DNA of 64,000 bases from Pyrenula massariospora. Taxonomy: Eukaryota > Ascomycota > Eurotiomycetes > Pyrenulales > Pyrenulaceae. The position numbers were made by a program, and so were the translations under genes. This document shows positions 78 to 37,358 of the stretch, piece after piece. Each line of letters begins with the position of its first letter. Positions within the stretch are counted from its first letter, which is position 1. Below the pieces are notes generated by a model, which saw nothing but the letters and a program-made list of their open reading frames with translations, did not search any database and had not been told where the DNA came from. The DNA is taken from NCBI GenBank assembly GCA_021030905.1, contig JAGFMI010000015.1:806001-870000 (forward strand), read 5' to 3'.

Positions 78-1351
78 ATGTTCTCATCACGACCCGTCTT
101 CAACCTCTTGTCCTTGATCTGCGCCATTCTCCCATTCTGCACGATCTCCCAAGCTCACACTCCAATCCAATCTCGATCATTCAATAATTCCACCAACATC
201 TCTCGCCTCATCTTCTTCGGCGACTCCTTCACCGACCAGTCCCGCTCCCACAGCATTGCCAACGGCACCTACCCAGGCAAAGACTACCAACAAGTCTATC
301 CGCCGGAAGATCCAGGAATCAATGGCGGTATTTCCTGGCCTTGGTCCGTCCCAAACATTCCATTTCTCCTATACCACTAACCCCAATAATAAAGGTACCT
401 AAGCCAATACACCAGCCTCCCCTTCGACAACTACGCCTGCGGCGGCGCGGCCTGCAGTAACACGCTCACCCCCCTCGGGCCCCCCGACGTCTCCACCGGC
501 CAGCTGAACTGGTTCACCCAAGACCACGTCCCCTCCAACTCCACCCACGCCCTCGACATCGACGGCTCAACCACCATAGCCCTCCTCTGGATCGGCACGA
601 ACGACCTGGGGATCCACTCCCTCCTCGCCCCTGACACCTACGCGCCGCCGTACTCCCCTACCATCCCCCCCATATCCCCAGGCCACGACAACGCCACCAC
701 CATATCCGACCTAGCGACCTGCCAACTAAACCACCTCCGCACCCTCTACACCTACGGCCTCCGTCACTTCCTCCTCCTCGCCCCGATTCCCCTCCACCTC
801 ACCCGCCTCTACGCCCCGCTCGACACAGGCACCATCTACTGGCCACAAACCCACGACGGGAAGCAGTGGAACTTGCAAATCTACCACCTCTCCACCGCAC
901 TCAGCGCGCTGCTTCGGCTCGGCGTGGATGGACTTGCGGCCGAGTTTGGCGCGGACATTGACGTCCAGTATTTTGACACTTACCGGTTCTTTGAGGAGCT
1001 GTACCTTAACCCGGGGAAATACTATAATGGGACTGCCCCGGTAACGGTCACGGGTCACTGCCATCAGTGCCCAAATGCGAGTGACTGGCATTACTGCGGG
1101 ATGTGAGTTTTTGATCTCTTTCCCCCGTTTTCTGCCTCACCCGCATAGCAAAGGCTCCAACCTTTTAAAACTTCACACACAAAAACTCTCTCACACACTG
1201 GCTAATGCACGTACGTTGATCTAGAGGGGACTGTACGGGCAGCGAGAGGGATAGCTACATGTGGTGGGACGAGCTACACCCGAGCGAGCAGACGGGGCGG
1301 CTGTTGGCCGCGGAGGTGGCGAGGAAGATTGAAGGGCGGTCTACCTATTGA
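78..1351 (+). CDS. Secreted GDSL acylhydrolase, CE16-type acetylesterase
   Basis: Three exons (78-343, 395-1102, 1225-1351) give 366 aa. The ATG at 78 opens a hydrophobic signal peptide ending near SQA (about residue 26). The GDSL block I reads FFGDSFTD with nucleophile Ser50. The GGISW and ACGGAACSN segments match fungal carbohydrate esterase family 16, IGTNDLG is the block with the conserved Asn, and DELHPS near the C-terminus supplies Asp340 and His343. The family removes acetyl groups from plant polysaccharide oligomers outside the cell; the exact substrate is inferred. Intron 1 has a CACTAAC branch site and intron 2 a GTGAGT donor; both keep the frame. The body is strongly C-rich and the last exon G-rich. 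Confidence 0.88.
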
Positions 1352-1888
1352 ACGGAACGGAACGGTGCTGTGCTTATGGTGAAAGGGGGAGGGGGAAAAG
1401 GGGAGGAAGGGGAAAAGGGGAAGAAGAGGGAAAGGGGAGGAGTAGGTAGTAATAAAGACTTTATTCCCAGAACCTTGTTCGAAAAGTAGAAAATTGCAAC
1501 CATTGTCGATGTTGGGGGTTCTGCATGAGGCCAAGGATGATCGGCTGCTGGGCTGGTGGAGCTGGTCTGTGCGTTGGGTGGTCTGTTGACATGACGTTGC
1601 GGCGCATTGAGTTCCAAGAAATAGCCTCCATTTTCCATGCTTCCCTCCAAGCTCGCAATAATGCATGTTTGAGAGAAGGAGTTGCAGTAATCATGCTCAG
1701 ACAGAGATATCTCTTGCGCTGACAGCACCCATTTTGAGAAGGATTGCGTTGTCTCCCTGCCTCCACCCCCGGCGACAATAAAAGCGGTCGAGCTCTTGGA
1801 CGCCCATCACCGCACCAGCCTCATCTGAAGCCAGATTCACACTCCATAAGCAAAGCTCAGGCATCACACAGCCTCAAATTCTTCTAAC
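1352..1888. other. Intergenic, esterase 3' flank and anoctamin promoter
   Basis: No gene is visible. It holds the purine tract at 1381-1442 and an AATAAAAG (1777-1784) about 110 bp before the next ATG that could be a weak TATA-like site. Confidence 0.5.
1381..1442 (+). repeat. 62-nt uninterrupted homopurine tract
   Basis: Every base from 1381 to 1442 is A or G, made of irregular runs of GGGG and AAAA blocks. It begins 30 bp after the esterase stop codon. Such tracts can form triplex (H-DNA) structures or stabilise RNA:DNA hybrids when the G-rich strand is the non-template strand, as here. That role is inference. Confidence 0.85.
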
Positions 1889-4306
1889 ATGTCGAGTCCG
1901 AAATCGGCAGGCAACTCTTTATCTCAGGGCAACTACGGAACCGACTATGTCATCATCTACCGGTTTCATGATCTCGGTATCTTTCACCCCTTCACGTCTT
2001 ACATTTCAGCCTTCGGCTCACGAACATTCTCCGCTGCAGACAGAAACAAGGCGACAACGGGGTTCGAAAGACTTGTCGGTACATTAAACAAAGTGGGCCT
2101 TCAGACCGAGGTTAGAAACGGTGATGAGCAAAGATTGCTGGTCTTTGTACGGGCTGGAGATGAAAGTGTGCTTGGAACAACAGTATACCGTTCAAGGTAT
2201 GCCCGAATCTTGTACCCTTCTAGGATTCTCTAACTAACTCTTTGCATAGAGTCAAGGACTGGCTCTATGGCATTCGACAAGCGCAGCCAGATAAAGAGAC
2301 CCAGAATGCGTTGACCACTGAGCCGCTCACGGAAGCCGAACGCCTTCGCCAAGTTCATCAAATGATCACGGCACCTGAATCGGAAGGTGGCGCTAATATT
2401 GTCCCAAAAAGCGGTCAATGGAAAGAAGTTGAAGCTATTTTCCCTCTGCATGACCATCAGAAGAATAAGAAATGGATATCGGAATGGAGCCGGAAGACAT
2501 TCTTGTCCACAGAAGATCTGGATAACATCAGAGATCATCTTGGAGAAAAGGTGCGGTACCGACCCTGGCCCTATGGGTCTGTGCTGAAGCAATCAGATTG
2601 CCTACTACTTTGCCTTTCTACAATCTTATTTCGCTTTTCTCATGTTCCCGGCCGCTTTCGGCTTCTCGTGCTGGGTGTTGTTAGGATACTTTTCTCCGAT
2701 CTACGCTATTGTCAATGGGCTTTGGAGTGTCGTCTTTGTGGAATGGTGGAAGCGACAAGAGGCTGACTTGGCCATCCGGTGGGGCGTTCGAGGCGTATCA
2801 TCAATACTCGACAAGCGCAGATCGTTCCAGCATGAAAAGGAAATTGTCGATCCCATCACCGGCGAGACAGTCCAATTCTTCCCAGCAAAGAAGAGGATCA
2901 TGCGACAACTGCTCCAAATACCATTTGCTCTGTTGGCAAGCGTAGCCCTTGGCGCTATTATCGCTACGTGTTTTGGAATTGAAATCTTCATATCCGAAAT
3001 ATACGATGGTCCTCTTAAGAGCATTCTGGTTTGTATTGTTCACTAGACAGCTGACCTTGCTAACGATGCAAAGGTTTTCATTCCCACTGGTCTACTTACG
3101 ACCCTAATTCCAACGATTACCACAATTCTCACAGACACTGCTTCCAGGCTGACTGATTATGAAAACTATGAGACACAAGAAAGTCACGATATCGCTATGA
3201 CCCAGAAGATTTTCGTTCTTAATTTTATCACATCTTATCTACCCATTTTCCTCACCGCCTTCGTATATGTTCCATTTGCCACGGTCATTGTGCCGTACCT
3301 CGATATTTTCAGTCTTACTGTGAAGCCTTTCGCCACCGACGAGAAGCAGATGCAAGCTCCGAAGACGGCAGGAACATTCCAGATCAACCCCGATCGTCTT
3401 AGGAAGCAAGTCATTTACTTTACAGTGACAGCACAGATTGTCAACTTCGCTCTCGAAACGGTTGTTCCTTACTTAAAGCGCAAAGGTACCTCGAAATTTA
3501 AGGCGATGCAACATGAACGCGCGACGCGGAAAGGCGGCGCAGCGCCAAATGTTGGGGCAAATGACCCACCAGAAGAGAAAGCGTTCCTGGCCCGAGTTCG
3601 TAGCGAAGCAGACCTAGACGACTACGACGTCACGGCAGATCTGAGGGAGATGATCGTTCAATACGGATATCTCGCCCTCTTCTCTGTGGTTTGGCCCCTA
3701 GTCCCGGTCAGTTTCTTGGTCAACAATTGGCTAGAACTCAGAAGTGATACCTTCAAAATCACCGTTGAGTGCAAGCGTCCCACACCACAGCGAGCAGACT
3801 CTATTGGCCCATGGCTCGACAGTCTTGGCTTTTTGTCGTGGCTTGGCAGCATCACGGCAGCTGCGCTCGTCTACATGTTCAGTGATGGCGGACTGGGTCC
3901 AGATGGGAATCCTTCCGCTATCAAAGGCTGGGCCTTGCTGCTGACAATCTTCTTTTCTGAGCACATCTACCTCCTTGTACGTATAGGTGTCCGCACGGTG
4001 ATATCCAAGATTGACTCGCCAAATATGCGGAAAGATCGCGCAGAGAAATACATGGTCCGGAAGCGCTATCTTGAGGAAACGATGGAGACAGGAAAAGAAG
4101 CGACAACCTCACCCCCAAGCGGAATTGAAAAGAGCATTTCAAGGAAAAGCTTGGAGGACGAAGCCCGGGATGCAAGTCTAAAGGACGCGAAGCCCGAAGA
4201 TCGTTTTTGGGGAAGACAAAGAGGTGCAGCAGAGGTAGTTAAAGTTGGGAAGGGGCTCATCGAGGCGGCGATGCCAGCAGGAAATGAAACGAAGAAGACC
4301 TTGTGA
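1889..4306 (+). CDS. Anoctamin/TMEM16 family membrane protein (Ist2-like)
   Basis: Four exons (1889-2196, 2250-2550, 2597-3028, 3074-4306) give 757 aa. The N-terminal 200 residues are soluble. From about residue 205 multiple hydrophobic segments follow, starting with IAYYFAFLQSYFAFLMF and FSPIYAIVNGLWSVVFVEWW, which resemble the first helices of fungal anoctamins. FVEWWKRQEADLAIRWG is a family-like segment. Yeast Ist2 tethers the ER to the plasma membrane, and other members scramble lipids or conduct ions; which applies here cannot be told. The C-terminal tail is short, polar and basic. The introns are 45-53 nt; the second (46 nt, GTGCGG donor) is the least certain, but it restores the frame into the first membrane helix. 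Confidence 0.85.
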
Positions 4307-5001: not shown

Positions 5002-7479
5002 TTAGATGAGCACAATATGGTCCTCCCTAACCAGCCCGCTCAACGAGAAGCGTTCTTGGCCTGAAGCAAAACCTTGGCCAAAGCCGCACCTCCTATGCCA
5101 ACGACCGTACTTCGCACCCTCCACATCCTCGACCGTAATGGTAATAACCAATGCAAGATAGCGTCCACGCACCACGTGGCCTTCTCCCTCCCCTCCTCCT
5201 CCATTTACTTCTTCTTGCTGCTTACATACCACGACGGCGGGATCCTCGGCGAGCACAACGCAATTCACCTCGTGGGGAATGTGCTCGGGATCGTCAAATT
5301 CAACAAAGGCCACGATCGCGCCGGAAGCGCTGTGCAGGACACGATGCCGGCAGGGGAGCCGTGGGGTGTTGCAGCAATCCTTCATCGGATTGCTGTGGCC
5401 GAGGGTATAGCTGAGCAGTGGGCCGCGGTGGCGGTCGAGGAATTGCATACCGGTTTGGAGGTCGGGGTTGGATGATACGGCCTGCGGATCGACTTTTTGG
5501 CGGTAGAAGCAGTCTGCTTGGATACTGAGCCCGGCATTCAGAGGGCTGGAGGCGAGGGATCGGGTTAGGGTGACATCGGGTTTCGAGGTTGGGGATAGGG
5601 CTTTTGTAGTACGGGAATAGTGGTTGAAGGGGTAGAAATGGACTGGACCGTCAACAGCGGCCCAGCTCCAGGATGGAGCTGTTTTCCAACGAGATTAGGA
5701 ATGGATATGAACAGTCGCAAGGGCTATGAAGAAGGTATCTGAGGGACAGCAGAAAGGGAAATCTTACCTCTATCATAGTGGGGAGGACTGATTTGTCCGT
5801 TCTTCCGTCCCCAGAGCAATCCCTCGACAGCTTCTTCGAGCCAAATGCCATAGTAGAATGTCCATTCATTCGTTCGGCGAAAAGTATCAGCCAACCCCAA
5901 GAGGGCACGAAGTTTGTCACTTGGTTTAGTAATGTTACAAGCAGAGAATTCTTCCACGAGGATAAACCATGCCAAAGAGCCCGTCTTCTGCTTTTCCCCA
6001 TTCAACCTCAATCTGCTGTCGAAGGGTTGAGAAAATTTGGGTTTTTTCGACAAGATCGCTCTGAAGTTTACCCGTAAAGAACCATCGATGGCGGTCATGT
6101 CTCTGCTTGGTAACAAAGCCGCTGGACGATCTGATCCGCGTTTTCTGGATGTTCTGATTAGACGATTGAAGATGTCACCTCTCGCAGACTGGACACGGAT
6201 TCCCTCTTCTAGCGAGACTCCTTCTTTACATTCCCAATAGAGCTGAAGTCTACCGAAGTAGAGAATGCGACGAGCAAGCATTCTCTCCTGAAACACCCAA
6301 CCACGTCTCGACCACCGACTGTGCAAAATCTCGTAGTTGAAGTCATCATGGATATCGTTTTGCATGGGCAGCGCTATATGCATGTTCCCTAAGCATTGGT
6401 TGCCGGCCATGCATGGGAATGTGATTGAATCCTGCGCGCTTTTGGTCTTGTCTGCAGGAGTGCCCGAAAGAAAGAGTCCTTCGTCGTAATTTTCGGCGCC
6501 CAAAGCCGCAATCACAAACACCGCATTTCTATAAATGTCGCCCATTTTTAGAAGCTCTTCGTTCATGTCGGTCACATCGTCTTGAACTATACATAACGAG
6601 TCGATCCAAAGATATCTAAAACCAAGGACATGGACTATATCAATCGCTTCTCTGACGGTCTTCGGTGCCTTTTGCTGCTCAATGCCTGTAAAGAAATATT
6701 TAAGTTCTTCTGTGGTGAGCTGGACGTCGGGTGTAGCTGCTTCTTTCCAGCAATAACTCAGCGCAATGTAGTCTCTATATTTGCCTTCTGTCGTGATCAG
6801 AAATGGTTGCCCTTTGGCACTCACTTCGATGAGTCTCTTAGGCATCTGTACTCTCGCTCTCGTGCGTCGAGCGACTGTATCATAGTCGGCGTCTTTCGCG
6901 CACCGGGAGTGGCTATGAAGGCATTTTGAGATCCAGCTCTGGATCAATTTTAGATTCGTGTTTGACGCGGCATAATGGATTGGTCTGCCAACAATCAGGG
7001 AGCTCAGCTGACTGTCTGTCCTTTGGTCAGCGTCCAGTGCGCTGCGAAGTAATGCTTGAATTACCTGGCTCAACGTATATGCGCAAGTGCCGATACACCT
7101 TTCTCTCTGGAGATGCACCTTTTGGTAGTTCGATTGTCACATTGATCCGATCAATGGGATAAAATCCATATTGAACTCTTTTCCCGTCTTTGACCTTGAC
7201 AACATCCTGCTTTGTAAAATAGTGGTACTTCCGAGGTCCTGTCAAGTAGAGACATTTCCAGGAATCATAAGGTGAGCAGAGTAAGCGCAAAAGCTGGCAC
7301 AAACGGCACTTAGGATCAAGTTTCGTCAACCTTTGTCGTTCCGATAGAGGTCGTTGGTCAGGTTTAACGAGCAGTCCCCATTTGTTCCGAACTAATGTGT
7401 CTTTTCCAAAGAGCTTACTGATAGTCAATTCTTCGCAAAAATCACACAGACCGTCAGAGAACTTTTCCCGAGGACCCAT
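5002..7479 (-). CDS. HET-domain (heterokaryon incompatibility) protein
   Basis: Three exons on the minus strand (7479-7065, 7015-5768, 5678-5002) give 779 aa. The HET domain begins near residue 220 with IALSYCW. It continues with the hallmark WIDSLCIVQD (about 275-284), an IYRNA segment, and RRGWVFQERM (about 375-384). The C-terminal part includes PSWSWAAVDGPV, the usual block after the domain. The N-terminal 60 residues hold two CxxC pairs (CDFC and CRLC) that could bind a metal. HET proteins act in vegetative incompatibility and programmed cell death; allelic specificity cannot be inferred. Both introns (49 and 89 nt) have consensus donors and preserve the frame. The last part of the coding strand is G-rich. 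Confidence 0.85.
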
Positions 7480-13623: not shown

Positions 13624-14947
13624 GCCAGCTCATTGGTGAAGGTGGATCTTGCCATGTGCTTTTCGATTATTTGATATCTTGGGGAATTACGGCTTGTGTA
13701 TGACTTCTACGATACTCGTTTTGTCGGTTTGGAACACCATGAACGCCGACTGGATTAGGCTTCGGAACGCCTGGGATACACTTTATTGCTGAGCCAGCTT
13801 TTGCTCTGCTAGCATCACTTTTGGGACAACGGTACACTGGAGTTGGAAAGAATCTGGTGAATTTCTGGCAACAAATGAAAAATATTATTCTCTCCAAAAT
13901 GCCTTTCCATCTCCTACGCGATTGCTTTCTGACGTCAAGCCACTGAACTTGGTTGCTCTTCAATTCACGTGATAGATCCTCTGGCCGCAAGCATGAATAA
14001 GTATAATAGTGGCCTAGAGACTTGCCTTTGCGACTCCTTTCTACCGGAGACAGCCATCAAATCGGCCGTGTTCCGGCGCCATCGACTTACTTTGCAAAAC
14101 CCACGACGCTCACCCACTCTTGGAGACCTCGTCTCCACGCAAGCATCAGTTCTACATCAGGTCTCATCAGCACGCTAATCTAACGCTTCGTCTCACTCCT
14201 AGGCATTCCGGTCTAGATCTACATGTAGACGCATCTTAATCCTCGCTCTCGGTCTCCGGCCTGCTGGCGCGACATGGACCTAATCTCGTACTGGCCTCTT
14301 CCTCCAAGCGCCCTGTCTCATGAACTCAGGTTACGTTGTGATCGTTTCAGAAGCCAACGAAGAACCGGTTCTGTGTCACGGTGTTGCTGATCAAGATAGA
14401 ATCAGCTTTTGGTACTGTTGTTGGCAGTTGGCCCCCAGAGCAGGAGTAGGCGGCGCTTAGCTAGAGCAGGTCAAGTCTCCAGGCGGGACTAAGCCACATC
14501 TAGATCGTTCCACGTTGCGTTTCAGCAGATGCACAACATACTAAAGATTGCAGCACGGCTCCTCGTAATGGCTGTGGACGTTTAGTCACAAGCTCGATCG
14601 GCTAAGTGGCTTGCGCAGCAAACGCTTCGTGTTGGCGAATGGTGAGGACGTGAAGAACTACCCCAAGTATAAGTGCTTCGTACAGGAGGCCTGTGGGCTA
14701 GGCCTCTTGTGGTGAACGCAGCCCTTGTTTCTTGAGCCTGATCAAAAACAATGAAGATCTTTTTCCTCTTCAATCTTTGGGTATTGTGTCCATTTTTTCA
14801 TTTTCAGTTTCATAGTCGCCATTGACTTTTTCATTTCGGGTCTGCCTGCTCATGCTCCGGCGCAGGCGCCTCTGTTCGTTCGTTAATCGAAGCAGTCACT
14901 CGTTTCAATATCCTGTCAAGATTTGAACGTTCTTTCACTCAACTTCC
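13624..14947. other. Intergenic between two tandem related genes
   Basis: No supportable feature. Short frames are present on both strands without recognisable content. The last 200 bp are pyrimidine-rich and likely promoter/leader of the downstream gene. Confidence 0.5.
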
Positions 14948-16081
14948 ATGCCAGCTCAAACTTTTAGCGCCATATTCAACCCTTCAGCTGCCACGTCGTC
15001 TCAGCAAAACCCATATACTCTCCCACCTCTTGAAGAATCACTAGCTTTCTCCCCCGAACCAAAATCATGGAGCTGGCAAGACCCAACTTTCCAGGCTCCA
15101 GAACACGATGAGGGCGCCGCTCCCCGAATTGAACCGACCTACACTCGCCCGGCACCCCTGCCCTGGCAACGTCCAAACTCCCGCTTCCTCCGCCGAATAT
15201 CCACGACTACTGATGACCGCCACGCCTCCCATTGGGAAGACCAATCCTGCTACGACCCCGACGATGCGCCGCCCGTCCCAAACTTGCTTTCCGCGCAGGA
15301 ATACCGTCCGCCTTTGGCACCCTGGACCGAAGAGCCAGCAGACGAATCAATGTACCCATCCCCTCTCACACCACGAAGAAAAAACTCGAATTTGAAGTTC
15401 ACCTACAACTCCACCCTTGGCTCTAACCTAGGTCGATCTCACACGCTCAAACGCTCGAACTCCCTGACCTCCCTCCCCTCCCGCCAATCAACCCTCGCTT
15501 TATCCACAAACCAATACAGATTCACCCGCAAGTTCTCCACGCGATACACCCGCCAGCCCTCGCGCTACGACCCACCCCGACTCGACTGGTCCTTCTCCCG
15601 CTCCACCTCCGCCGAAACCTCCCCAGACGACGCCACCACCGCCGGCGGCTTCCTCGAAAAGCCCCCCCTCACCGCCCTCAGCGACACCTTCCTCGGCGAC
15701 ATCATCGGCAGCTACAATCCCTTTAGCCCCAAAAGTCCCCCTCCCCATCCACCAAGCAACCCCTCCCCATCCCCATTCCCCACCCACAACCCCACAACCC
15801 CCGGGCCCACCCCACCCCCCAAAGACTCCCCCCTGGGCCTGGGCATGCTCTGGTCCAGCAGCACGGGCGCGATCCGGCGCGGGGGTCCGCGGCGCTACGT
15901 GTCGCACGAGGAAGCCTTGAGGGCGCTGGACACGCTGTTGGCGTACGAGGCGTGTCAGATGGTCGGGGATGTGGGGATTATTGGGCTTTTGAGGGGAGGG
16001 GGAGGGAGTGGGGGGGATTGGGTGGGGTGGCGGGGTTTTGAGAGAGGGGAGGTGGAGGGGGGGAATGTGGGTGTGGATTGA
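14948..16081 (+). CDS. Uncharacterised Pro/Ser-rich protein with C-terminal helical motif
   Basis: Intronless, 377 aa. No known domain. Most of the chain is rich in Pro, Ser, Thr and Arg and probably disordered; residues about 255-295 are almost only Pro, Ser, Thr and His. Near the C-terminus it has VSHEEALRALDTLLAYEA followed by IIGLLR, a motif shared with the upstream gene at 12913. The tail after it is Gly-rich because the DNA switches from extremely C-rich to extremely G-rich. The line 15781-15840 has 37 C and 7 G; 16021-16080 has 1 C and 38 G. Coding status is supported by the shared motif and the long open frame; the function is unknown. Confidence 0.65.
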   Translation: MPAQTFSAIFNPSAATSSQQNPYTLPPLEESLAFSPEPKSWSWQDPTFQAPEHDEGAAPRIEPTYTRPAPLPWQRPNSRFLRRISTTTDDRHASHWEDQSCYDPDDAPPVPNLLSAQEYRPPLAPWTEEPADESMYPSPLTPRRKNSNLKFTYNSTLGSNLGRSHTLKRSNSLTSLPSRQSTLALSTNQYRFTRKFSTRYTRQPSRYDPPRLDWSFSRSTSAETSPDDATTAGGFLEKPPLTALSDTFLGDIIGSYNPFSPKSPPPHPPSNPSPSPFPTHNPTTPGPTPPPKDSPLGLGMLWSSSTGAIRRGGPRRYVSHEEALRALDTLLAYEACQMVGDVGIIGLLRGGGGSGGDWVGWRGFERGEVEGGNVGVD

Positions 16082-16412
16082 TATGTGTAGTGTTGAGGAG
16101 GTTGGAAATTTGTTGGAGTGATGAGATTGTCTTGGTCGTATAGATTCTGTATCTTAGAGCTAGATCCCGGCATCACCAATGATAACCTCATCAATATATT
16201 CCCCTATGTTCGACAATGGTTCATGAGCTAGAGCACTAAGCCCCTTAAGCTTCTTGCTGTTTTAAGTTCAAACGCGCGCGTGGGCTGCCGACATCTGGTT
16301 TCAGTGAAAACCGCAGCAGAATATTTTCCAAATTGATATACACCAGCAGAGTTTCGCGCGATGTTATTAAGTATGCTTCTAAACCGTCAAGTTTTATTAT
16401 AGCTGCTTCAGT
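16082..16412. other. Short intergenic region between convergent genes
   Basis: Holds only 3' flanks of the two converging genes. No element seen. Confidence 0.5.
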
Positions 16413-18615
16413 CTAAGAACAAGCAAAGCTCGCAACCCAGTCTCCGCCCACAAGCCCAGGCACCTCAACTCGTTGCGTGCCATCTCCTGTCACAGGCACC
16501 GTCTTCCCCTCCGCTCTTCTCATCGTCTCCTCAATCGTCAACGTCCCAGCACAAGCCGGAGCCGGCATCGACAAACTCCCACTCGTCCCCATCGGCGCGC
16601 TAAAATTATAACTACTAATCCCCACCCCCTCCGTCTGCGCCAAGCTCGCCGCAAAGCTCCCCAGCGTCGTCTCAAAGCCCGCCTCGACACTCTCAAGATC
16701 CCCCGGATTCGGGCTCATCACCCACTCTTGGCCACCAGCCCCGCCATCTACGATGCTGATACCCGCCACATAGAACGTCAGCGCGCTCGTCGGCCCGGTA
16801 GCCCACCCATGCGCATGGCTGATGCGCGGATCATTCGTGTACGGCGCGTAGTGCAGCGCGCCGCTGCTCGAATACCCCTCGATGAACGTGCTGTTCGTCA
16901 TGCGCGGGTCGTCGAGCATAAAGTCCGCCCACATCAGGCGGATCAGGTCGAGGGCGCGGGAGGGCTGGGCGGCGAGGATGTGCGCCTGGATCTCGAAGCC
17001 GGAGATGAAGGGGGAGATGGCGTCGGCGGCTTCGATGGCGGGGGGGCCATAGGGCGTCCAGCGCGCGTAGAGGGCGTCGGAGATGGAGGCGGATTTGGCG
17101 GGGGAGTCGGTTACGTTGGCGAGGATGGCCCAGACGTTGCCGTCTTGGGGGTGGAGGGTGGTGGTTTCGTTGTCGCGGTAGAGGGAGGCTGATGCGTCCC
17201 AGAGCAGGGTGTTTGCGGAGGCTTTGATGCCATCTGCGGCGGTGGTATAGTTTTGGAGGACGGAGGTGTCGTTGAGGACGTTGGCGAGAGTTATGGCGCG
17301 GTTGAGGGTGTAATAGAAGATTGAGTTTGCCTGATAATTACGACCAAGATTAGATGAGGGATTTGTAATGCAGAACAGCACCCACCTCAATATTGTGCCC
17401 GCCCATGCCGAAGCGGAGCCAGTCAGCTGAGCTAGTTACGTTCGCCAGGCCGGAGTCGTCAATTTGGCTAAGGGACCAACTTAGGCCAAACTTGAACTGA
17501 TTCCATGTCTCTTGAAGATAGCTCAGATTACCAGTGTATTGGTAATAGTCTGCTATATCAATCAAGCTGTAGAGGTGGTATGTGAAACTAAATGCTCCGA
17601 GCCTCTTGTTGAATGGTGTGCCCGCATAAGGAAGTTGACCAGTGGTCGTGTTCTGGAGGACAAGCAAGGAGTCAAGAGCATTGCGGATAGTGACTATGTC
17701 ATATGTCGAGACGATCATAGATGGACCCGAGATTGCCTATCCAGCATTAGCTCGCTTTTCATTACACGGAATAATACACGCACAATGTCACCAGGCCAGA
17801 CTAATCGATCCCTCTTTGCACCGTCGACTAACACACTTGTCCCATCTGCATCGTTTTTTAGCTTGATACGGGCTGCGGAGAAGACATGACTTACTTGCGA
17901 TTGTGTAATTATTGTACCATGTTACCGTTCCGGTAATATTGCTCTTACTAGTGATCTCCCCAAGGTGGACTAGAGAGTCTCCAGCTGTGGGATCGATAGT
18001 GCATAATTGATTCGTGTAGGCACCGGCGTACCACACCCTGTTGATCTTCTCATCACTGCTGTGGAAGTAGCCAGTATAGTTGGCCATCTGATCATCGGCT
18101 AGGTGCGGAACTGCCGTGAATTGAACAGACAGTTTGCTGATGGAGACAGATCCCGTGGTGTTATGATAAACGTTCAGGTATCTAAAACCACCTCTTTGAT
18201 GTTTATTGTCTGCAGAGTAGGTTCCAGGTATGACCTGATACCAGAGGCCCTCATCGATGCCTGCGTCGGCCGTAGCATCGCAGCCATTGCTGTTGATCCA
18301 CAATGAGCTCTCTGAGAAGCTAACACCGATATATTGGTTTTCGCCCTCGACTGAGTCGACTGTAAATGATATGATGCCTGCAGTGTTCAGACCCATGTCG
18401 TAAGTCACTGCTGAAACATCTTGGAAGACTGTCGAGCCACTAGCCTCGTTTGTTTGGGCTTCAGCATTGTCGACTGTGCCATTGATATTGAAAACCTTGG
18501 AAGGTATGATAGTCCTAGATGAAGGCGCGAGAATGTATTGCGAATATTGTGCAGCTAGCACGGTTCTGAGCAGGAAGATGGCCGGAAGGATACCGCCAAA
18601 CATTTTCGATGCCAT
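16413..18615 (-). CDS. Secreted GH78-type alpha-L-rhamnosidase-like enzyme (six-hairpin fold)
   Basis: Four exons on the minus strand (18615-17895, 17845-17784, 17736-17386, 17330-16413) give 683 aa. The ATG at 18615 was chosen because it starts a signal peptide ending at VLAAQ; a further upstream ATG at 18669 adds polar residues. The N-terminal 220 residues are a beta-rich accessory region. VLVDGAKRDRLVWPGD is the typical start of the fungal rhamnosidase-like alpha/alpha toroid, followed by YHLYSLIDIADYYQYTGNL, GGHNIEANSIFYYTLNRA and ISHAHGWATGPTSALTFYVAG. It probably removes rhamnose from plant or glycoside substrates outside the cell; the substrate is inferred. Introns of 49, 47 and 55 nt keep the frame. 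Confidence 0.85.
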
Positions 18616-19794
18616 GCTTTTGTGATGGTATACCCAATAGCAAATGCTCACCATCCGCCACGAGAACACATAGGAATTTTACAGAGGAAAACGTGCTTTA
18701 TGAAAGGTTTCACTTAGCTGTAAAGCATAGGCATGTCTGAGTGCCATGTCAAAGTGCCGATAGAAAATTTGAAGCTTTTCTTGCAAGCTCAAAGGCGTCA
18801 TTGTTGATGCTCGGTGCAACGCCTACCGAAAATCTGGGGAAGCCAAGACCGGAGAAGAACATTAGGGCAGGTCGACGCTGGTCAACTCTGGCGGTTCCTG
18901 AACTTTCGAGCGATGATGCCTGGATCACATCGCTCTGGTGTTGCAATGGTTTGGTGGATCTCTCCGCGATTCTCCCCACATCGAAACAATTTTCTGCCGA
19001 GGTTTACCCCGGATTCTCGGGATGTGGATGCGCCGAAGTGCCGAGCCTGGGCCTGCGTTGGTCGCGTCGCCAGTTTCTCTTCAACTCGAAGCCTCCTCCT
19101 CTTCCTCCTCAGGGTCCTTCATCCTCTGAATACCACCCTGCTATGAGATCTCCGATCCAACCTGACTGCGGTGAACCATCTTGTCCCTATGCTACGCGTG
19201 TTGTGACCTTGCCATCCCGTGACGAAGTCTTTGCATGAATCTTGGCTAACCATTCCTAAAGGGCCTGTCCCACAGGTGAAATTGAGACATGCAAGCGACC
19301 TTGCGCTAACCTCCCCCTATCCTCGCCCTATAAGGAACGATGTTCTTGGCGGCTTTGGTCCATTAGGAAGACGCGGCCTCGCTCCACAACCCTTTTGTCG
19401 AGGATTCCCATGTGAGCACCGCAAAGCTTCTTTACCATCTGCCCGGCTCGGTAAGGGGTCAAAGAGGCACTTTGCCCTTCTAGCGTCGCTTGCCCATCAC
19501 GCTTTAGGATTTCCGCGAATCAAGCCATGCTCGCGCAAGAAGGTTCCTTGATTCTTCAACTCGACATCGCCAGGGTCTTCAGCACTATTGGCAATGAGCT
19601 TTATTGGCAAAGTCGCAATGTTTCTTCCATCCCACCGACGGATAGGAAAATGCTGTCGCGTGAGAGCGTAGATACCTATATCAGTGGCGGTGACCGCTCG
19701 CCTCGGTTACACATGATTCTGTGGAAGCAGCGAGTCACCTCTAGTAACACCGCTTTTCTTTCTCTCTCTTTTTACCTTGATCGCTTAATGTGTA
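18616..19794. other. Intergenic, divergent promoter of two glycoside hydrolase genes
   Basis: Lies between the GH78-type gene (minus) and the GH3 gene (plus), so it may carry shared control sites for both secreted hydrolases. Overlapping open frames at 18741-19240 have no recognisable content. Confidence 0.5.
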
Positions 19795-22551
19795 ATGATG
19801 TTATTTCGCATCTTCTCTCTTTCATTCATTTTCTACAGTCATGTAGATTCCTGGTTTGTACCCTTCGATCAATATGATCCAGCGCACTACGGACCAAAAC
19901 AACCGGGCGGTGTGGTCAAGAAACGAGATTCGGTCCCTTCAGAATACGTCGCAGCTCCCTATTATCCCGCGCCTCCTGGTGGCTGGGTTCCAGAATGGAC
20001 AAATTCCTACGCACGCGCCCAGGCAATCGTATCCAAAATGACACTCGCCGAGAAGGTCAACCTGACAACCGGGACCGGCCTGTACATGGGCCCTTGTGTA
20101 GGAAATACCGGCTCTGCAACACGATTTGGTATCCCAAACCTCTGCCTTCAAGATTCTGCCTTGGGAGTCGCAAATACAGATCATAATACCGCATTTCCTC
20201 CCGGTATCACGGTCGGCGCAACATTCAATAAAGACCTAATGTATGCCCGTGGGGTAGCAATAGGAGCAGAATCACGAGGCAAGGGTGTGAATATTCAGCT
20301 TGGCCCGACTGTCGGACCTCTGGGGCGGAAACCTCGTGGTGGGAGAAATTGGGAGGGCTTTGGGGCCGACCCAGTCCTCCAAGCATACGGCGGAGCTGAG
20401 ACTATCAGAGGCATGCAGAGTCAGGGTGTCATTGCTACCATAAAGCATCTTATCGGCAACGAGCAAGAAGAGCATCGAATGGATAGCATTCCTCATGGAA
20501 CAGCAAGAGCTGAGAGCGCCAACATTGACGACCGAACACTACATGAACTCTATGCTTGGCCTTTTGCTGAAGGCATAAGGGCGGGAGTCGGCGCGGTTAT
20601 GACATCCTACAATGAAGTCAATGGAAGCGCTGCATCTCAGAACAGCTACCTCATCAATGGCATTCTGAAAGATGAACTCGGGTTCCAAGGTATTACCATG
20701 ACAGATTGGTTGGCGCACATTGGTGGCGTTTCTAGCGCTTTAGCAGGGTTGGATATGAGCATGCCTGGAGATGGGAGTATTCCTCTGCTCGGACAATCAT
20801 ACTGGGCGTACGAGCTTTCGAACAGCATCCTCAACGGCACAGTGCCAGTAGACCGACTCAACGACATGGTGACTCGTATTGTAGCTGCTTGGTTGCAAAT
20901 GGGTCAGGACGCGGCCGATTATCCCGACGTCAACTTTTCTTCCAACACTGCAGACCCAACAGGACTGTGCTACCCGGGCGCAGTTCTCTCACCAATTTGC
21001 GATCCAATTAATCGATACGTGGTTGTCAATACCTCAGACCACGCAGCTATAGCTAGACAAATTGCTACAGAAGGAATTACGCTCCTCAAGAATGACAATG
21101 CCACTCTTCCTCTAAAAACAAATGCAACCCTCCGTGTTTTTGGGACCGATGCTCAAAACAATCCAGCTGGACCAAATGCTTGCGGTAGCCGAGCCTGCGA
21201 TACTGGCATTCTAGGAATGGGCTGGGGTAGCGGAACAGCGAACTACCCCTACCTCGATGCGCCGATCGACGCTCTCCGCCGCCGCAGCACCAATGTCGAC
21301 TACTACGCAACTGATTCTTTCCCCAGCAGTCCGACCGTTTCAGCTGGCGACGTAGCCCTTGTCTTCATCAATTCAGACAGCGGTGAGGGCAGTTTCACCG
21401 TCGAAGGTAACGCCGGGGATCGGAACGCTGCAGGGTTAAATGCCTGGCATAACGGCAACGACCTCGTCCAAGCAGCCGCTCAGAAATACTCCACTGTAAT
21501 AGTAATCGTCCATACCGTCGGCCCCATCCTCCTAGAATCCTGGATCAACCTCCCATCCGTCAAAGCCGTCCTCTTCGCCCACCTCCCTGGCCAAGAAGCC
21601 GGCGAATCCCTAATTTCCGTCCTTTTCGGTGACACCTCTCCCAGCGGTCACCTTCCCTACTCCATTCCCAAATCCGAATCCGACTATCCCCCCTCCGTCT
21701 CCATCGCCGGCTCTTCCAACCCCCTTGACACTGCCCAAGTCCAAGACACCTTCACCGAAACCCTCTACATCGACTACCGCTACCTGACCGCCCACAACAT
21801 CACCCCGCGCTACCCCTTCGGCCACGGCCTATCCTACACAACCTTCACCCTCACCTCCCCCACCCTCACCCCTCTCACCCCGCTCCCCCTCTCCCCCTAC
21901 CCCTCCCCCCGCCCCGCCAAACTCCCAACCCCAATCTACAACACAACAATCCCCCCCTTCTCCGAAGTCTCCTGGGCGAATTCCGGCATCCCCCTCATCT
22001 CCCGCATAAACCGCTACCTCTACCCCTACCTCGCCGTCCCCCCGCCCCCCTCCCTCACCCCCTACCCCTACCCAGAGGGCTACACCACCGCCCCGCACGC
22101 CATCCCCCGCGCCGGCGGCGCCCAGGGCGGCAACCCCGCGCTGTTTGAGCGTGTTTTCAATCTCAGCGTGACGGTGACCAATACTGGAGACGTGCCGGGG
22201 AAGGCGGTCGCCATGCTCTTCGTATCCTACCTGGCGGACGGGGAGTTCGACACGCCGCCGCTGCAGCTCAGGGATTTTGTCAAGACGGGGGTGCTGGGGC
22301 CGGGGGAGAGCGTGGGTGTGGAGTTGGGGGTGAGCAGGAAGGATGTTAGTGTGTGGGATGCGGGGGTGCAGGATTGGCGGGTGTTGAATGGGGGAGAAGG
22401 GTATGGGTTTTATGTTGGGTGGAGTGTGGGGGATTTGAGGGGGAGGTGCGAGAGTGATGGGGGATGTGAGGAGATTGGGGGTGGTAGTGGTGGTGGGAGC
22501 GGGAAGAGTACGGTGAGGCGGAGGATGGACGGGGTGAGGAGGTGGGGATGA
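19795..22551 (+). CDS. Secreted GH3 beta-glucosidase
   Basis: Single exon, 918 aa (ATG 19795; a second ATG follows directly). A hydrophobic leader is followed by the GH3 N-domain. [15 protein letters not shown], the [14 protein letters not shown] substrate loop, [13 protein letters not shown] and the nucleophile motif TMTDW (Asp304) are all present. The GH3 C-domain has [16 protein letters not shown], whose Glu531 is the expected acid/base. A fibronectin-III-like C-terminal domain contains LQLRDFVKT. Residues about 690-770 form a long Pro/Tyr-rich insert before that domain. It hydrolyses terminal beta-glucosyl residues of cello- or other glucosides outside the cell. The coding strand is 41 C and 1 G at 21841-21900, but 0 C and 31 G at 22381-22440. 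Confidence 0.92.
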
Positions 22552-23066
22552 TGGGGTTTCTTTCTGTTTGGTATGAACTGTGGGTGGCGGAACTGGGGGG
22601 AAACAGGATAAGAAATACGGGTATTAGGTTCACAGCATTACTTGTTTAAGGTATGGGCTCGGAAATTCACAGAGATGACCTATCCATCAACTTTACTGTA
22701 CATATACACAAACATTCTTGCCAATACTCTGAGAAATCTCCCTCATCAACGATCAAACCGGTGCGGCATCGGCCTCCCCTCGACAACTTCGGTCATAGTG
22801 TCATAATTCGTGTGTGTGTCTGTCTGTTTGTCTGTCTCTGTATTAATATGTATGTACAACGAAACGAAGCAAATGAATAGTCAACTGCTCCCCCAAACCC
22901 GTAAAACTCCATGCTTGCTGAACAATAACCGATCCCAGGAAAAACGTATGTGAGTGAGGGAACCGCCATGCAAAACAAGCGCCTCTAAATGCAGCATACA
23001 TACCGCCGCCATCAAACGCAAGACACAAGACCAGCCGAAGATATTTGAAAGAGCGGCGTAGAGACA
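22552..23066. other. Intergenic between convergent genes
   Basis: Contains the GT/CTGT microsatellite at 22810-22840 and 3' flanks of both genes. Confidence 0.5.
22810..22840 (+). repeat. GT/CTGT microsatellite
   Basis: A short run of GT dinucleotides passes into CTGT/TTGT tetranucleotides. Confidence 0.8.
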
Positions 23067-24172
23067 TCAACAGCACTTCCCCCGTCTCCCCCTACCGCCT
23101 GCTGTGCCTCCATCACCACTTTCCGCCAACTCGCCCAGATTAAGATTAACCGGAATGCCCAGCCAACTCCTCCTCTTATCCCCGTGTCCCACGCGAAAGC
23201 TCCCACCATGCCCTCCAGTCCCCGCGTCCGTCCCGTCAAAGTACCCTCCAACCCCCAACCCAGCACCGCCGCTACCGTCTCCGCTCACCCCGCCATCCCA
23301 CCCGGGCGTGATCCCCCTTAAACTCGCCTCCCGCTCCAAGCGCCGGTTCCGCTGCTCGACGAGCTTGCGCGCAATGACGCGGAACACCTCCTCGATCCCC
23401 TCGCCGTCGCGCGCCGACACCTCGTGGCAGCTGTCCCAGCCGACGTCCTGGCCCCAGAAGCCGGAGCTGCGCTTGCTGTCCGGGCTGTTGTGCTGCTGCT
23501 GCTGCGGCTGTTGTGCCGCCGTGCCGGGCGTCAGCGCGCCGAACAACGACTGCGACTGCGAGGCCCTCTTATTATGCTCATCGTGCGCGTGCGACGTCGC
23601 GGGCGGTATCGCGCCCTGGCTCCCGCCGCCGCCGCCCAGCACGTCGGCGACGTACTTGATAGTGCGCTCGAACGCGACCTTGCGGCGGCCCGGGTCTTCC
23701 GCGACGAGGTCGCTCTTCGTGCCGACGACGTGCAGCACCAGCCCTTCCCCGCCCAGGCCGCCGCCGACCTGCTCGCGCAGCTCCGCCAGCCAGCCCTTCA
23801 TGTCCTCCCAGCTGCGCTCGTCGGTGATGTCGTAGCAGAGCAGGCCGGCGTTGGCGCCGCGGTAGTAGAGGCGGGAGATGCTGCGGAAGCGTTCTTGGCC
23901 CGCGGTGTCCCAGATTTGGAGGCGGACGTCGGTGTCGGAGGGGGTGTCGAGGATGCGTTTTGTGAGGAAGGTAGCGCCGAGCGTGGAGGCGGGTGGAGCG
24001 GATGAGGAGAAGGTGTTGGAGATGTAGCGGTGGAGGAGGGAGGTTTTGCCGACGCCTGTGGTTGACGAGGGAGGTGTTAGTTGCGGTCTTCACCGGGCGG
24101 GGGATAGTGGGATATTCTGGGCGGACCTTGGGAGCCGAGAACGACGATTTTGGCTTCCAGGCTGCTAGACAT
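23067..24172 (-). CDS. Rab-family small GTPase with long insertion and C-terminal CC
   Basis: Two exons on the minus strand (24172-24127, 24055-23067) give 344 aa, far longer than the usual 200-220 aa of a Rab. G1 is GSQGVGKTS (about residues 14-22), split by the 71-nt intron. WDTAGQERFRSISRLYYRGA is G3 and the Rab family signature, GTKSDL is G4 and VSARDGEGIEEVF is G5. Between G4 and G5 lies an insert of about 80 residues rich in Gly, Gln and Ser. After G5 a Gly-rich tail of about 100 residues ends in GKCC, a double-cysteine geranylgeranylation signal. It should cycle on membranes in vesicle traffic; the subfamily is not assigned. Confidence 0.88.
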
Positions 24173-32688: not shown

Positions 32689-34165
32689 TGGTATATACGA
32701 AAGTACATTTCCAGCTTGGTTGGAACTGTTCGCGAACTTGAGTGTCGCATCATCCATGTCTCAAAGGTCTCAATTGTGTGCACCATCAACTAGGTGGCAA
32801 CGGATCTTCGTGTCAGCGGAGCATTTGAGCGAAGCCATCCGACGAAGACGAAACCTGCGCAGGCGAACTTTCTTATAAAGTCTCGGTCATGATGGATAAT
32901 CGCGCAATTGGTATGGCACAAAGAGCGTCGCACCCGTAGCGAGGATGCCAGGCCACCTTGCGATATTCGGGTATAGAGGGCGTTGTATGACTGCGGCTGT
33001 CATATATACCATGCCTTTTATGTGTCGCCTCGCAGGATACAGACGGGTAGTAGGCGGCAAGGCGCGCTCACTGCGAGAGACAAGGCTGAGAATCGAAAGT
33101 GGCACTCCGCGAGACTCGTATGGTGGAGCTGTGGGTGGAGCCAAGACTCTCGTAGCGTTGCCCCTTAATTTGAAAACCTCCGAACTGTTCAGGATGAAAC
33201 ACGCCTGTAAGAGGACTAGTATCAGTAGCCGGTATTACCCTACACCAACATCTTTTCCGCCCGCTGTGAGGCACATCAGCTTCCTCCTCCATGCTGCTTG
33301 ACGTGATGGATTCATCCAACTGGCAGATCTATTCCCGCAACTGTCGTGAGTGCAGCTTATTGTGAGGGCTGCGAGTCGCCCGTCGAAGCGATTATTATGA
33401 CTCTCAACCGTCGTGAGAAGGGGGACGCTGGGTGTCGTTGACTTGTTGCCCGCCCCGAGATTATCTCAAATCTCCCGGCAATTCTCAACCCTATCGCAGA
33501 GGTCGGGCAGAGGGCTGCTATATTGAGCAGCGCACGATAATAGATAAGTTCTCCATCTCGGATCTTCTTTTTTGATCATCTACTCCTTTCATTGGACGTC
33601 TGGAGCGGTTTGAGAATTGCGACCCCTGCCCACGTCATTTATGCTTGAACATGTCCGGCCTTCCCGCGGCTGTTTGGGGTCGAACAATCCTCCACCGGCC
33701 CCGCGCAATACCGCGCCAATACTCCCACCGCCCTACCCTCAACCCCGTATGGACTCTGGACCCGAATCGTCCACCCTGGCAATCTCACATCTCCACCACT
33801 GAGGATCCTGGTATCATCTGTTTTAATCAATCAACATGGCACGCCTCTTCTGTCAGGATGCTTGGCTGATCAAATCTTCGGGCCAAGACCCGCCTGCCAA
33901 TATGTCACGACGCTTCCAGATGAACTCCTGCCGATACCGCCTAGCGTGGCCCAATGGGACCCGTCGTCGACATCGGGGATTTTCATCTTTACACCTCTAC
34001 TTGTCTACGTGCATGACTTGGAGTCACGACACTCTTTCTCAGCCCGACGCTGCAAGGCTTTCCGGAAAGCCGTCCATTCCTTTTAAACAAACCATTTCAC
34101 TTTCCAATCTTATCATTCAAGATCAATCACGCTAGAGACTTTTAAAGTCGGGGGTTCTGGTAGCC
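32689..34165. other. Intergenic
   Basis: Nothing supportable. Overlapping short frames are present. The final bases before 34166 give a good fungal start context (AGCCATGG). Confidence 0.5.
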
Positions 34166-37100
34166 ATGGGTTGGTTGAACAGGTCGCGAGCTGCTTCGGA
34201 CGAGCATAGTTTAGAAGTCGGACGCCCAACACTACAATATACGGACGCTCAACCTCGGAATGACCTCCAGTCTTTAGGGCAGATCACTCCGTCTGCAAGG
34301 CCGGGGACCGCGAAAGACGGATCCAAGGCATTTGAAGAGGAACGACCAAAGACGTCCGGAGCAGCTTCGAGGCAGAAACCTAGGCCAACATTACCACAGA
34401 CACCGGCTTCCTTCAATCTGTATCCTTCTGCTGCCACGCACGGCAACACTTCCAAGACAAACCTTGCAATCAACGTGGATGATGGAGCGCCAATTGGCAT
34501 GGCGCTGGGAAGTCCTACTCATCCTCCACCACGACCGGCTCAGCAAACTCATGGTCGATCTCCACTCCTGAATTCTGAAGCTCTTGCGCATGATGAAAAT
34601 TTGTACGATGACTCTGCAACGAAGAACAAGTCTGGAAAATGGAAGAAGTTGGGTGGCATATTCAGAGCTAAGAACGCATTTGGGCAGCCCGTACAACACA
34701 CGTCCGCTTTTTATTCGCTCACCAATCAATATGCTGCCTCCGTATCACCAACCGAAGAAAGGAAGCCAGCACCAGTAGAAACGTGGCCTTTGCCGCAACC
34801 ACCAGTAGGCATGCCGGCCAAAGCTCAGAAACTCACCGGCCAACTTGATAATGCTAATAAGAGTGCTGCATCCCTTGGCAAGCCTTCAATGGATTCAAGT
34901 CGGCGACCAACAGGCCCGAAGAGGTCACTGGAAAGTCATGATGATCACAATGCCGCAATAAGAAATTTTGAGAGCTCTGCCATGTTCAGCAAGGGAGCTG
35001 TTAGTACTCTCCCTTCTCTAGACGTCGACATACCGGATGCACAGATGGAACGGTACAGTATTATGTTCGGAAGTCTACTTGGCGGCTCCTCTTCAAACCT
35101 TCTTGCGAGACGCAGTCGTATGCTTGAGAAGCTCAAGACGCTAAGCGACGAAGACGAGATATCTCCCGCCAAGAAGGACGAAAAAGCCCTATACTCGGAT
35201 ACTCTCGGTCTACCTAAAGGGCCAAAAGATCACTCACATCTCGCTGCGCAAGCCCAGCCTCTAAGAAGGGCTACTTCTCCCAGCCAAAAATCCCCGAACC
35301 TAAATTTGTTTCCTCAAGACGATAAGCTTGGAAAAGATGTGCGAAGAAGTCCGGTTTCGAGATCATTCACCGCGCCTGCGAGACTATCACCAATGCGGGA
35401 GACCTTTGAACATGAGAAGTCCAAAGCCAAGGGCCAAATACAACCGGACATGGACTTTGTCTCTAGTCCATCTCAGACGACCTCTGCGACGACCCACAGT
35501 CAGAAGTACAGCTCTGATAGCTCATTTCTATCACCGACATCCACTCGAGATTCCGCCGACGTAGAGGACATTCTATTCAACGTTAAGCCCCTACAGCCTT
35601 GGGGTGAATATGAGGAACAACAATGGGAGTTAGTATCAAATGAGAATTTGGCGAAGCTTCCCCCACTCAATATGCCGCTGAAACAACGATCGAATCTTGG
35701 CCCAAGATCTCCTGAATGGGACATGATCCATTCGAAGCAGTCTCAGGTTAAGGAAGCGGAAGTGAAAGCTTCACGGGTCAAAAGTCAGGATTCCCACGAA
35801 GAGACTCTAGCAGCGCTAGAAAGACCGGCGCCGAGAGGGCAAGACCTTGCTCCGTTGAAAGCAACGAAGGCAGCTGTGGATCGTCTCATGAGCCCCCCGC
35901 CTTCTGCAAATCGTATCAGATTAAATGAAAAGATCGCAAAGCTCGACGAAGATATCGCAAAACTTGCCAAAGCTCGCATTGAGTCCCTCGCACCAGACCA
36001 GGCTGCCTTCTCCGTCACATCCGATGCCGTTTCCGACGCGGTGCGTAAGCTCAACGAGCCTCTCGCTCGCAGTATCTCGCAGAAGAAGGCAAACGAAACA
36101 GGATCCGAGGACCCTTCGATTCCGAGAGCAGATTCTTTGACCGTCAAGCAAGAAACATACATTCCGAAGCTCAAGGTCCGCAATCGCTCCAACACCATCA
36201 CTCAGTCTGATGCACTATCTCACACGCCTACCTCGTCAACCACAACCCCAGCGACATCAAAACCCATTACCTCACAGTCCCAATCCCAGTCGTCTTCTCC
36301 ACCATCTTCCCGCCTCCCCCGCCGCGTCGCCTCCCGTCCAGCAATGACCGATACCGCTATCACAACCCTCGCCTCCGACCTCGACGCCCTTGAACACCAA
36401 ATTGAATCTCGCGCCGTTCGTGCCATGAAAAAACAAGCTACCGCCACTGCCGCGGCGAAACCAACCGCATCCCCCGACCTCGACCCCGTAATCTCCCCGC
36501 CAGCCAGCCTCTCCGACTTCCCCACCCCTGGATCCGCAGCCCCCAAACCCTCAGCATTCGGCCTTTCAGGCACAATCTCTTCCGCGACCGGCTCCCCCCG
36601 CCCCGCCCTCGTCCAGTCCACCCGCCCCGCAACCGACGACTCAACCTCCTCCAAACGAGGCGAGAGCCGCGCCGTCCGCGCCGCGCGCAAACAAGCCGCC
36701 GAACTCCAAAAGGCCCGGAGCACGGAGAGCCTCCACGCCGCCGCGGCGACAGCAGCCCCGCACTCCCCGCTCCCCTCGCTCCCGCCACAGCAGGAGGCAG
36801 ATCCGGAGATATGGGGGAAATCCGCAACCCCTTCCCCGCAACCCGAGGTCCAGCTCGCGCGCCAGATCAGCCTGAGCAAGCGCCCCAAACAGCTCCTCGT
36901 GCCCATCCCCATCTCCACCTCTTCCTCATCCGGGTCCAAGACCCGTCCTGCTCCTTCCCCCGCCGCCGAGAATACCCGCGGCGTGGTACAGGTAGATCCC
37001 ACGGTCCTAAGGGAGAGGGACGGGGAGCGGTTCCGCGAGGGGATGCGCGTGCAGACGCCGACGCTGATCGTGGGGCCGGATGGGATTGGGATTGGGGATT

Positions 37101-37171
37101 CGGGGGCGTTTGGGAGGGGACGGGGGCATCGGTATGAGAGGAGTGTTGGGGTGGTTATTGAGAGTGCTTGA
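34166..37171 (+). CDS. Large disordered protein of unknown function
   Basis: Intronless, 1001 aa. No catalytic domain was recognised. The protein is rich in Ser, Pro, Lys and Arg with many potential phosphorylation sites. Some islands look ordered: SGKWKKLGGIFRAKNAFGQP (about 154-173), a region near 290-325 containing MERYSIMFGSLLGG, and a coiled-coil-like stretch near 585-605 (LNEKIAKLDEDIAKLAKARI). ESRAVRAMKKQA and ESRAVRAARKQA (about 752 and 832) are two copies of one helical motif. It ends with a segment containing QTPTLIVGPDGIGIGDSGAF. A scaffold or cell-cortex role is possible but unproven. The 3' part shows the C-rich to G-rich switch at about 37000. Confidence 0.8.
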   Translation: MGWLNRSRAASDEHSLEVGRPTLQYTDAQPRNDLQSLGQITPSARPGTAKDGSKAFEEERPKTSGAASRQKPRPTLPQTPASFNLYPSAATHGNTSKTNLAINVDDGAPIGMALGSPTHPPPRPAQQTHGRSPLLNSEALAHDENLYDDSATKNKSGKWKKLGGIFRAKNAFGQPVQHTSAFYSLTNQYAASVSPTEERKPAPVETWPLPQPPVGMPAKAQKLTGQLDNANKSAASLGKPSMDSSRRPTGPKRSLESHDDHNAAIRNFESSAMFSKGAVSTLPSLDVDIPDAQMERYSIMFGSLLGGSSSNLLARRSRMLEKLKTLSDEDEISPAKKDEKALYSDTLGLPKGPKDHSHLAAQAQPLRRATSPSQKSPNLNLFPQDDKLGKDVRRSPVSRSFTAPARLSPMRETFEHEKSKAKGQIQPDMDFVSSPSQTTSATTHSQKYSSDSSFLSPTSTRDSADVEDILFNVKPLQPWGEYEEQQWELVSNENLAKLPPLNMPLKQRSNLGPRSPEWDMIHSKQSQVKEAEVKASRVKSQDSHEETLAALERPAPRGQDLAPLKATKAAVDRLMSPPPSANRIRLNEKIAKLDEDIAKLAKARIESLAPDQAAFSVTSDAVSDAVRKLNEPLARSISQKKANETGSEDPSIPRADSLTVKQETYIPKLKVRNRSNTITQSDALSHTPTSSTTTPATSKPITSQSQSQSSSPPSSRLPRRVASRPAMTDTAITTLASDLDALEHQIESRAVRAMKKQATATAAAKPTASPDLDPVISPPASLSDFPTPGSAAPKPSAFGLSGTISSATGSPRPALVQSTRPATDDSTSSKRGESRAVRAARKQAAELQKARSTESLHAAAATAAPHSPLPSLPPQQEADPEIWGKSATPSPQPEVQLARQISLSKRPKQLLVPIPISTSSSSGSKTRPAPSPAAENTRGVVQVDPTVLRERDGERFREGMRVQTPTLIVGPDGIGIGDSGAFGRGRGHRYERSVGVVIESA

Positions 37172-37358
37172 TTCTGGTTTGGGGTTGGTTTGGAGTGGTC
37201 CGTCTTTTTCCGCGGCTATGAGGGCGACGGTGCACGCCAGGGCATTCGGATGCACTTTCATTCTTGCTTTCTTCCCATTTCGCCTCTAGAGTGCGACATT
37301 TCATTCCATTCCATTCCATCAGATATACCTTATTCACCAAGATTTAGCGCCGGGTCTG

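Follow-up and report, generated by a model that had tools for sequence, protein, structure and literature searches.

A GH3 beta-glucosidase ORF and a Rab/Ras-type GTPase ORF converge in the window, the whole 64-kb stretch of DNA analysed here (C6:806001-870000, from a genome of 37.8 Mb in 33 contigs), with their stops 515 bp apart (Table 1). Residues 55-867 of the GH3 ORF align to beta-glucosidases of known structure, for example PDB 8y0l (E 3.9e-199). Its coding strand carries a C-rich zone followed by a G-rich zone. In the Rab/Ras-type ORF, the plus strand has C-rich runs within 23064-23365 and a G-rich stretch at 23895-24126; read on its own coding strand, this is a C-rich zone followed by a G-rich one at the stop. 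A GH78-type ORF, which had no Pfam match at 1e-4, likewise converges with the ORF ending at 16081, with 331 bp between them. For the latter and for a 1011-aa ORF, Pfam and PDB searches returned no match, and neither did a Pfam search with the piece 393-1103 of the so-called CE16 region. The same order recurs: in many genes here the coding strand is mostly C and switches to G in the last few hundred bases. This switch is real and strong.

Table 1. Features of the window and of the surrounding 260 kb of C6; positions without prefix are those of the window.
Feature	Position	Strand	Details
GH3 beta-glucosidase ORF	19789..22551	+	920 aa, stop to stop; Pfam Glyco_hydro_3, Glyco_hydro_3_C, Fn3-like
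C-rich zone, GH3 gene	21603..22150	+	within coding sequence; 120-bp windows with C-G >=40, extreme 74
G-rich zone, GH3 gene	22236..22639	+	ends ~90 bp beyond the stop codon; 120-bp windows with G-C >=40, extreme 68
Rab/Ras-type GTPase ORF	23067..24089	-	Pfam Ras, E 4.2e-33
GH78-type (alpha-L-rhamnosidase-like) ORF	16413..17435	-	PDB 8iwd/8iwf alpha-L-rhamnosidase, E 2e-95; skew -0.24 to +0.41
ORF	14927..16081	+	C-rich 15393-15881, G-rich 15894-16170; coding strand lacks homology confirmation
1011-aa ORF	34136..37171	+	C-rich runs 36178-36415 and 36428-36661; G-rich 37001-37232
So-called CE16 region	78..1498	+	C-rich runs within 124-867, G-rich 1286-1498; name and gene limits from the sequence-only reading
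HET (four) and NACHT (one) ORFs	5724-7136 (-), 53483-55507 (+); L003:5313-7241 (-); L007:4964-6697 (+); L006:2749-5589 (-)		by Pfam; 260 kb of C6

A recount in the GH3 gene gave exactly the base numbers quoted by the earlier, sequence-only reading of this DNA: 41 C and 1 G at 21841-21900, and no C and 31 G at 22381-22440. In bins of 100 bp, the switch was seen at all places for which that reading had named it (the CE16 region, the ORFs ending at 16081 and 37171, and the GH78-type, GH3 and Rab genes), and the skew of single genes ranges from -0.76 to +0.96 per 100 bp. Of the genes that had been described as lacking the switch, the second HET gene (ORF 53483-55507) indeed lacks it; the anoctamin ORF (3047-4306) turned out to be modestly G-rich at its end (-0.01 to +0.24; p 0.002 by codon shuffle), which may be an intron rather than a true stop. 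Chance as the source of the switch is ruled out by codon shuffles, by random anchors and by simulated sequences. For example, the largest |G-C| per 60-mer was 43, as compared to 22-27 in 20 simulated 300-kb sequences of independent bases and matched composition, and 60-mers with |G-C| of 31 or more were found in 28 separate 500-bp bins of the 300 kb sampled.

This 300-kb sample, a part of the genome, consists of C6:700001-960000, which includes the window, and C2:300001-340000. A hexamer score was used to pick 93 ORFs, each at least 200 aa long and overlapping little; 68 of them have at least 300 aa. Our gene models are stop-to-stop ORFs rather than annotated genes, and the chosen ORFs cover only part of the genes. 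Introns probably account for some of the ORF stops, and not all neighbours were captured; the stop-aligned signal should therefore be blurred, and the comparison of neighbours could be biased. The Pfam search took in 70 ORFs, namely 61 of the 68 longer ones (the seven crossing 10-kb piece boundaries were left out) and nine shorter ones. A match at E <= 1e-4 was obtained for 37 of the 61, one of which (PAN_4, L021:8079-9191) lies under the curated cut-off. HET domains and a fungal-specific transcription factor domain are among the matches of the sampled ORFs and point to a filamentous fungus.

When the 68 ORFs are aligned at their stops, mean GC skew is about -0.15 in the stretch 900-600 nt upstream, crosses zero roughly 300 nt from the stop and reaches +0.298 over the final 75 nt. 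Downstream, the first 75 nt, counting the stop codon, have +0.143 and the 75 nt after these 0.005; farther on the skew is slightly negative, mostly -0.05 to -0.08. The G-bias is strongest over the final ~120 nt of coding sequence; by ~100 nt past the stop it is gone. Across the stop codon the skew steps from 0.26-0.31 in the last 60 nt to at most 0.19. In the 20 strongest ORFs it falls from 0.64 before the stop to 0.37 in the first bin after it, stop codon excluded, a drop that is inflated because these ORFs were selected on their coding part. At the other end of the genes, a C-bias of -0.11 was found in the first 75 nt counted from the first ATG (57 ORFs). AT skew is nearly flat, staying between -0.01 and +0.12 across the last 1500 nt with a slight drop near the stop.

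The direction of change is C to G in 59 of the 68 ORFs. The codon shuffle was passed at 0.05 by 40 of them, and a single ORF was significant in reverse. On average the skew changes by +0.302 at stops; 2000 draws of random anchors give 0.000 +/- 0.029, with a maximum of 0.099. An average reversal at stop codons, the absence of which had been named as a refutation of the switch, is thus present in the 300-kb sample. Both strands behave alike, with means of 0.305 for 33 plus-strand and 0.300 for 35 minus-strand ORFs. A comparable change was absent from the first part of the ORFs (0.041 +/- 0.029 s.e.m., 31 ORFs). When the first and last 100 bp were compared, the skew increased significantly in 31 of 66 ORFs and decreased in one (200 letters drawn at random from the ORF, one-sided 0.05).

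An effect of the window only is ruled out, since the 55 ORFs outside it give a matching profile. On contig C2, eight of nine ORFs are positive. The 37 Pfam-matched ORFs also show the matching profile, from -0.19 to +0.34 in bins of 150 nt. Elsewhere in the genome, the 3' ends of GH3 paralogues have clear switches on contigs C4 and C16; among ORFs at the other GH3 places, those on C15 and C33 have milder switches and the one on C17 only a weak rise. The 3' end of an MFS gene on C7 climbs to +0.35 in the last 100 nt; a second MFS stretch, on C27, holds no ORF of measurable length.

The switch affects both silent and coding positions. Skew at fourfold sites goes from about -0.42 (900-600 nt before the stop) to +0.41 (150-75 nt) and +0.35 (last 75 nt), and at codon positions 1 and 2 from about -0.06 to +0.26 toward the stop. 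All eight fourfold families trade C for G, with A little changed and T slightly up in most. Toward the C-terminus, the proportion TTG/(TTG+CTC) for leucine rises from 0.25 to 0.61, AGT/(AGT+TCC) for serine from 0.27 to 0.68, and AGG/(AGG+CGC) for arginine from 0.28 to 0.73. Over the final 80 codons of the 68 ORFs, G, V, M, W, C and E go up and T, N, S, H, P and I go down, in step with the skew. As the fourfold families and the six-codon amino acids shift together, the pressure appears to act on nucleotides and not on side-chain chemistry, the amino acids being altered secondarily; a purely amino-acid effect is ruled out by the fourfold sites. Pairing of the C-rich with the G-rich segment into an mRNA hairpin was also considered, and in the 15 strongest genes the duplex energies were no better than those of local-composition shuffles (mean z +0.18).

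Genes differ widely in the size of the switch, which increases with GC content at fourfold sites (Spearman 0.70, 68 ORFs). Across ORFs, the C-rich part covaries with the G-rich one (rho -0.39). Four HET ORFs and one NACHT ORF, with a GC content of 0.39-0.52 at fourfold sites, have switches of -0.07 to +0.25 (mean about 0.05), and only the one of +0.25 is significant (p 0.012). The 32 other Pfam-matched ORFs have a mean of 0.417, with 24 above 0.2 (p 0.005 versus the HET and NACHT ORFs). In this part of C6, the window also contains a piece of an NPHP3_N-type NTPase followed by an ORF with ankyrin repeats (40638-43438, plus strand), perhaps one NLR-like gene split by introns.

The sequence-only reading held that no described feature fits this pattern, but one does. 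In almost all fungi examined, McLean and Tirosh (2011, BMC Genomics 12:638; PMC3315797) found opposite GC skews at the 5' and 3' ends. The title of that paper speaks of unicellular fungi, yet its species list, as distinct from the outcome per species, includes Aspergillus, Neurospora, Fusarium and other filamentous fungi. In what the paper describes, the C-biased 5' end and gene body and the G-biased 3' end agree with our genes, as do the involvement of both fourfold sites and amino acids, the extension of the skew past the stop and the flat AT skew. Significance is likewise reached by part of the genes, 33% in C. albicans there and 31 of 66 ORFs here. The present feature is very likely the same pattern, unusually steep in some genes. 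The 2011 paper gives averages per species with examples, whereas here the amplitude is that of single genes, which pass from stretches nearly free of G to stretches nearly free of C. It also reports a negative correlation of GC skew with GC content; the quantity that increases with GC at fourfold sites in our ORFs is another one, the size of the switch. The correlation with expression reported there is weak, and two classes of cause, mutation and selection, are proposed, the choice being left open in 2011. The main text of the paper makes no mention of convergent neighbours, orientation, antisense or R-loops. Among the matches listed in the open-licence literature, no other paper has a title on 3'-end skew of fungal nuclear genes. 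A switch that grows with GC content and with the proximity of a convergent gene, and that is weak or absent in five HET and NACHT ORFs, is possibly new.

We lean slightly towards explaining the whole as this known fungal gradient, produced by a transcription-coupled bias in mutation or repair. Such a strand-asymmetric bias would flip its sign where RNA polymerase II moves from elongation into the 3'-end phase. It would build up mainly at synonymous sites, yet be strong enough to shift the choice of amino acids. We put a mutational origin, as against a selective one, at even odds. The gradual decay of the skew over ~100 nt past the stop argues against a pure protein or codon cause, and its fall at the stop codon argues against a bias wholly blind to the reading frame, which should continue undiminished into the UTR unless the UTR is constrained. 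As AT skew hardly changes, simple C-to-T deamination is unlikely.

In human genes, GC skew at the 3' end is linked to R-loops and termination. Human genes share with ours the G-rich non-template strand at gene ends; ours differ in that the skew has its peak inside the coding sequence and is lost ~100 nt beyond the stop. A selected signal of this kind may act in our genes. A G-rich non-template strand would promote R-loops or pausing and aid termination, which would be most needed where genes converge. In a variant, the adaptive hypothesis of McLean and Tirosh, C would be avoided at transcript ends, tuning polymerase speed. We regard the two versions, taken jointly, as possible but doubtful. 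The alteration of amino acids speaks in their favor, and so does the arrangement of neighbours: the switch is larger in 46 ORFs with a convergent neighbour (mean 0.397) than in 45 with a tandem one (0.211, p 0.004), and it increases as the distance between convergent ORFs becomes shorter, both in all 46 (rho -0.52, p 0.0002) and in the 35 outside the window (rho -0.43, p 0.010). However, the difference between convergent and tandem ORFs weakens when GC at fourfold sites is corrected for (p 0.07 and 0.09 by permutation). Outside the window it has a p of 0.03 when all tandem ORFs are used, but is not significant (p 0.12) once those under 500 bp are set aside; such close tandem neighbours could be exons of a single gene, which partly confounds the comparison. 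The closest convergent ORFs (<600 bp) are six, forming three pairs, two of them in the window. Furthermore, the G-bias peaks inside the coding sequence and is gone ~100 nt past the stop, as measured from the stop and not from the transcript end.

We treat the effect of convergent neighbours as a lead, not a result. Tentatively, the local gene layout could set the strength of the switch, with overlapping or colliding convergent transcription driving it or selecting for it, an idea that we would not expect to hold but that has consequences. If it were true, the switch would take its extreme form in compact convergent pairs, a gene losing its convergent neighbour would lose its switch, and the pattern of 2011 would gain a definite cause.

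Antisense transcription offers another reading of the distance dependence in convergent pairs. If the C-bias follows whichever strand is transcribed, read-through from a convergent gene would put C on the antisense strand and therefore G on the sense 3' end. We consider this improbable. Sense transcription would be expected to dominate at 3' ends, a switch persists (+0.22 over the final 100 nt) in the 20 ORFs whose next ORF is tandem and at least 1500 bp away, and between convergent stops the skew is near zero beyond the first 100 nt.

Slightly less probable still is selection on codons or protein at C-termini, through translation speed or disordered tails. The step down of the skew at the stop codon and the predominance of C-ending codons in the gene body would suit such a cause. 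Against it, the change from C to G extends to all eight fourfold families, to the six-codon amino acids and to the sequence past the stop, and the variation between genes follows GC at fourfold sites (rho 0.70).

The finding of the same order in plus- and minus-strand genes had been taken to exclude replication skew. This argument is faulty: the reverse complement of C-then-G is again C-then-G, so either strand shows this order automatically, and it cannot separate transcription from replication. Polarity had therefore to come from the position of the switches within genes, and sharp switches were scanned at a scale of 250 bp over the 300 kb, with step thresholds of >0.5, >0.6 and >0.8. At >0.5 the two directions balance, with 64 C-to-G and 64 G-to-C switches, and the excess of C-to-G is thus confined to sharp switches, with 41 against 34 at >0.6 (22 and 5 inside the chosen ORFs) and 18 against 9 at >0.8 (11 and 1). 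Those C-to-G switches inside ORFs lie closer to the stop than to the ORF start in 18 of the 22 cases at >0.6 and 10 of the 11 at >0.8; ten of these eleven lie 161-309 bp from the stop and one lies 547 bp from it. The view that the feature is tied to genes, sits at their 3' ends and is unequal between them is supported. A replication origin, at which a C-to-G change on the plus strand has the expected sign, agrees with the strand-symmetric order and with the equal numbers at >0.5, but it predicts independence from gene boundaries and deserves hardly any credence given switch places fixed relative to stops, a change of 0 at random anchors, and significant switches spanning a few hundred bp in 40 of 68 ORFs.

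Worth following are the extreme amplitude in single genes and the way in which the switch may depend on GC content and convergent layout. Since the differences between genes (GC content, convergent neighbours, HET and NACHT ORFs) can be tested, this genome is suited to settling the question of mutation versus selection. Gene annotation needs some caution here. Opposite switching ends or genes lie antisense ORFs of 217-331 aa, at 36220-37215 (-), 15500-16153 (-), 16383-17192 (+) and 21829-22623 (-), the last of which (264 aa) faces the GH3 end. These long ORFs are probably a consequence of the skew and could pass for genes, and the amino-acid composition of C-termini moves with the skew as well. 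Another convergent pair of the sample consists of a helicase ORF (L017:379-6474, plus strand, 2032 aa; Pfam Sec63/SNRNP200), which we take to be Brr2-like, and a Bud13 ORF (L017:6665-7792, minus strand). Their stops are 184 bp apart, and both have strong switches, of 0.93 and 0.55.
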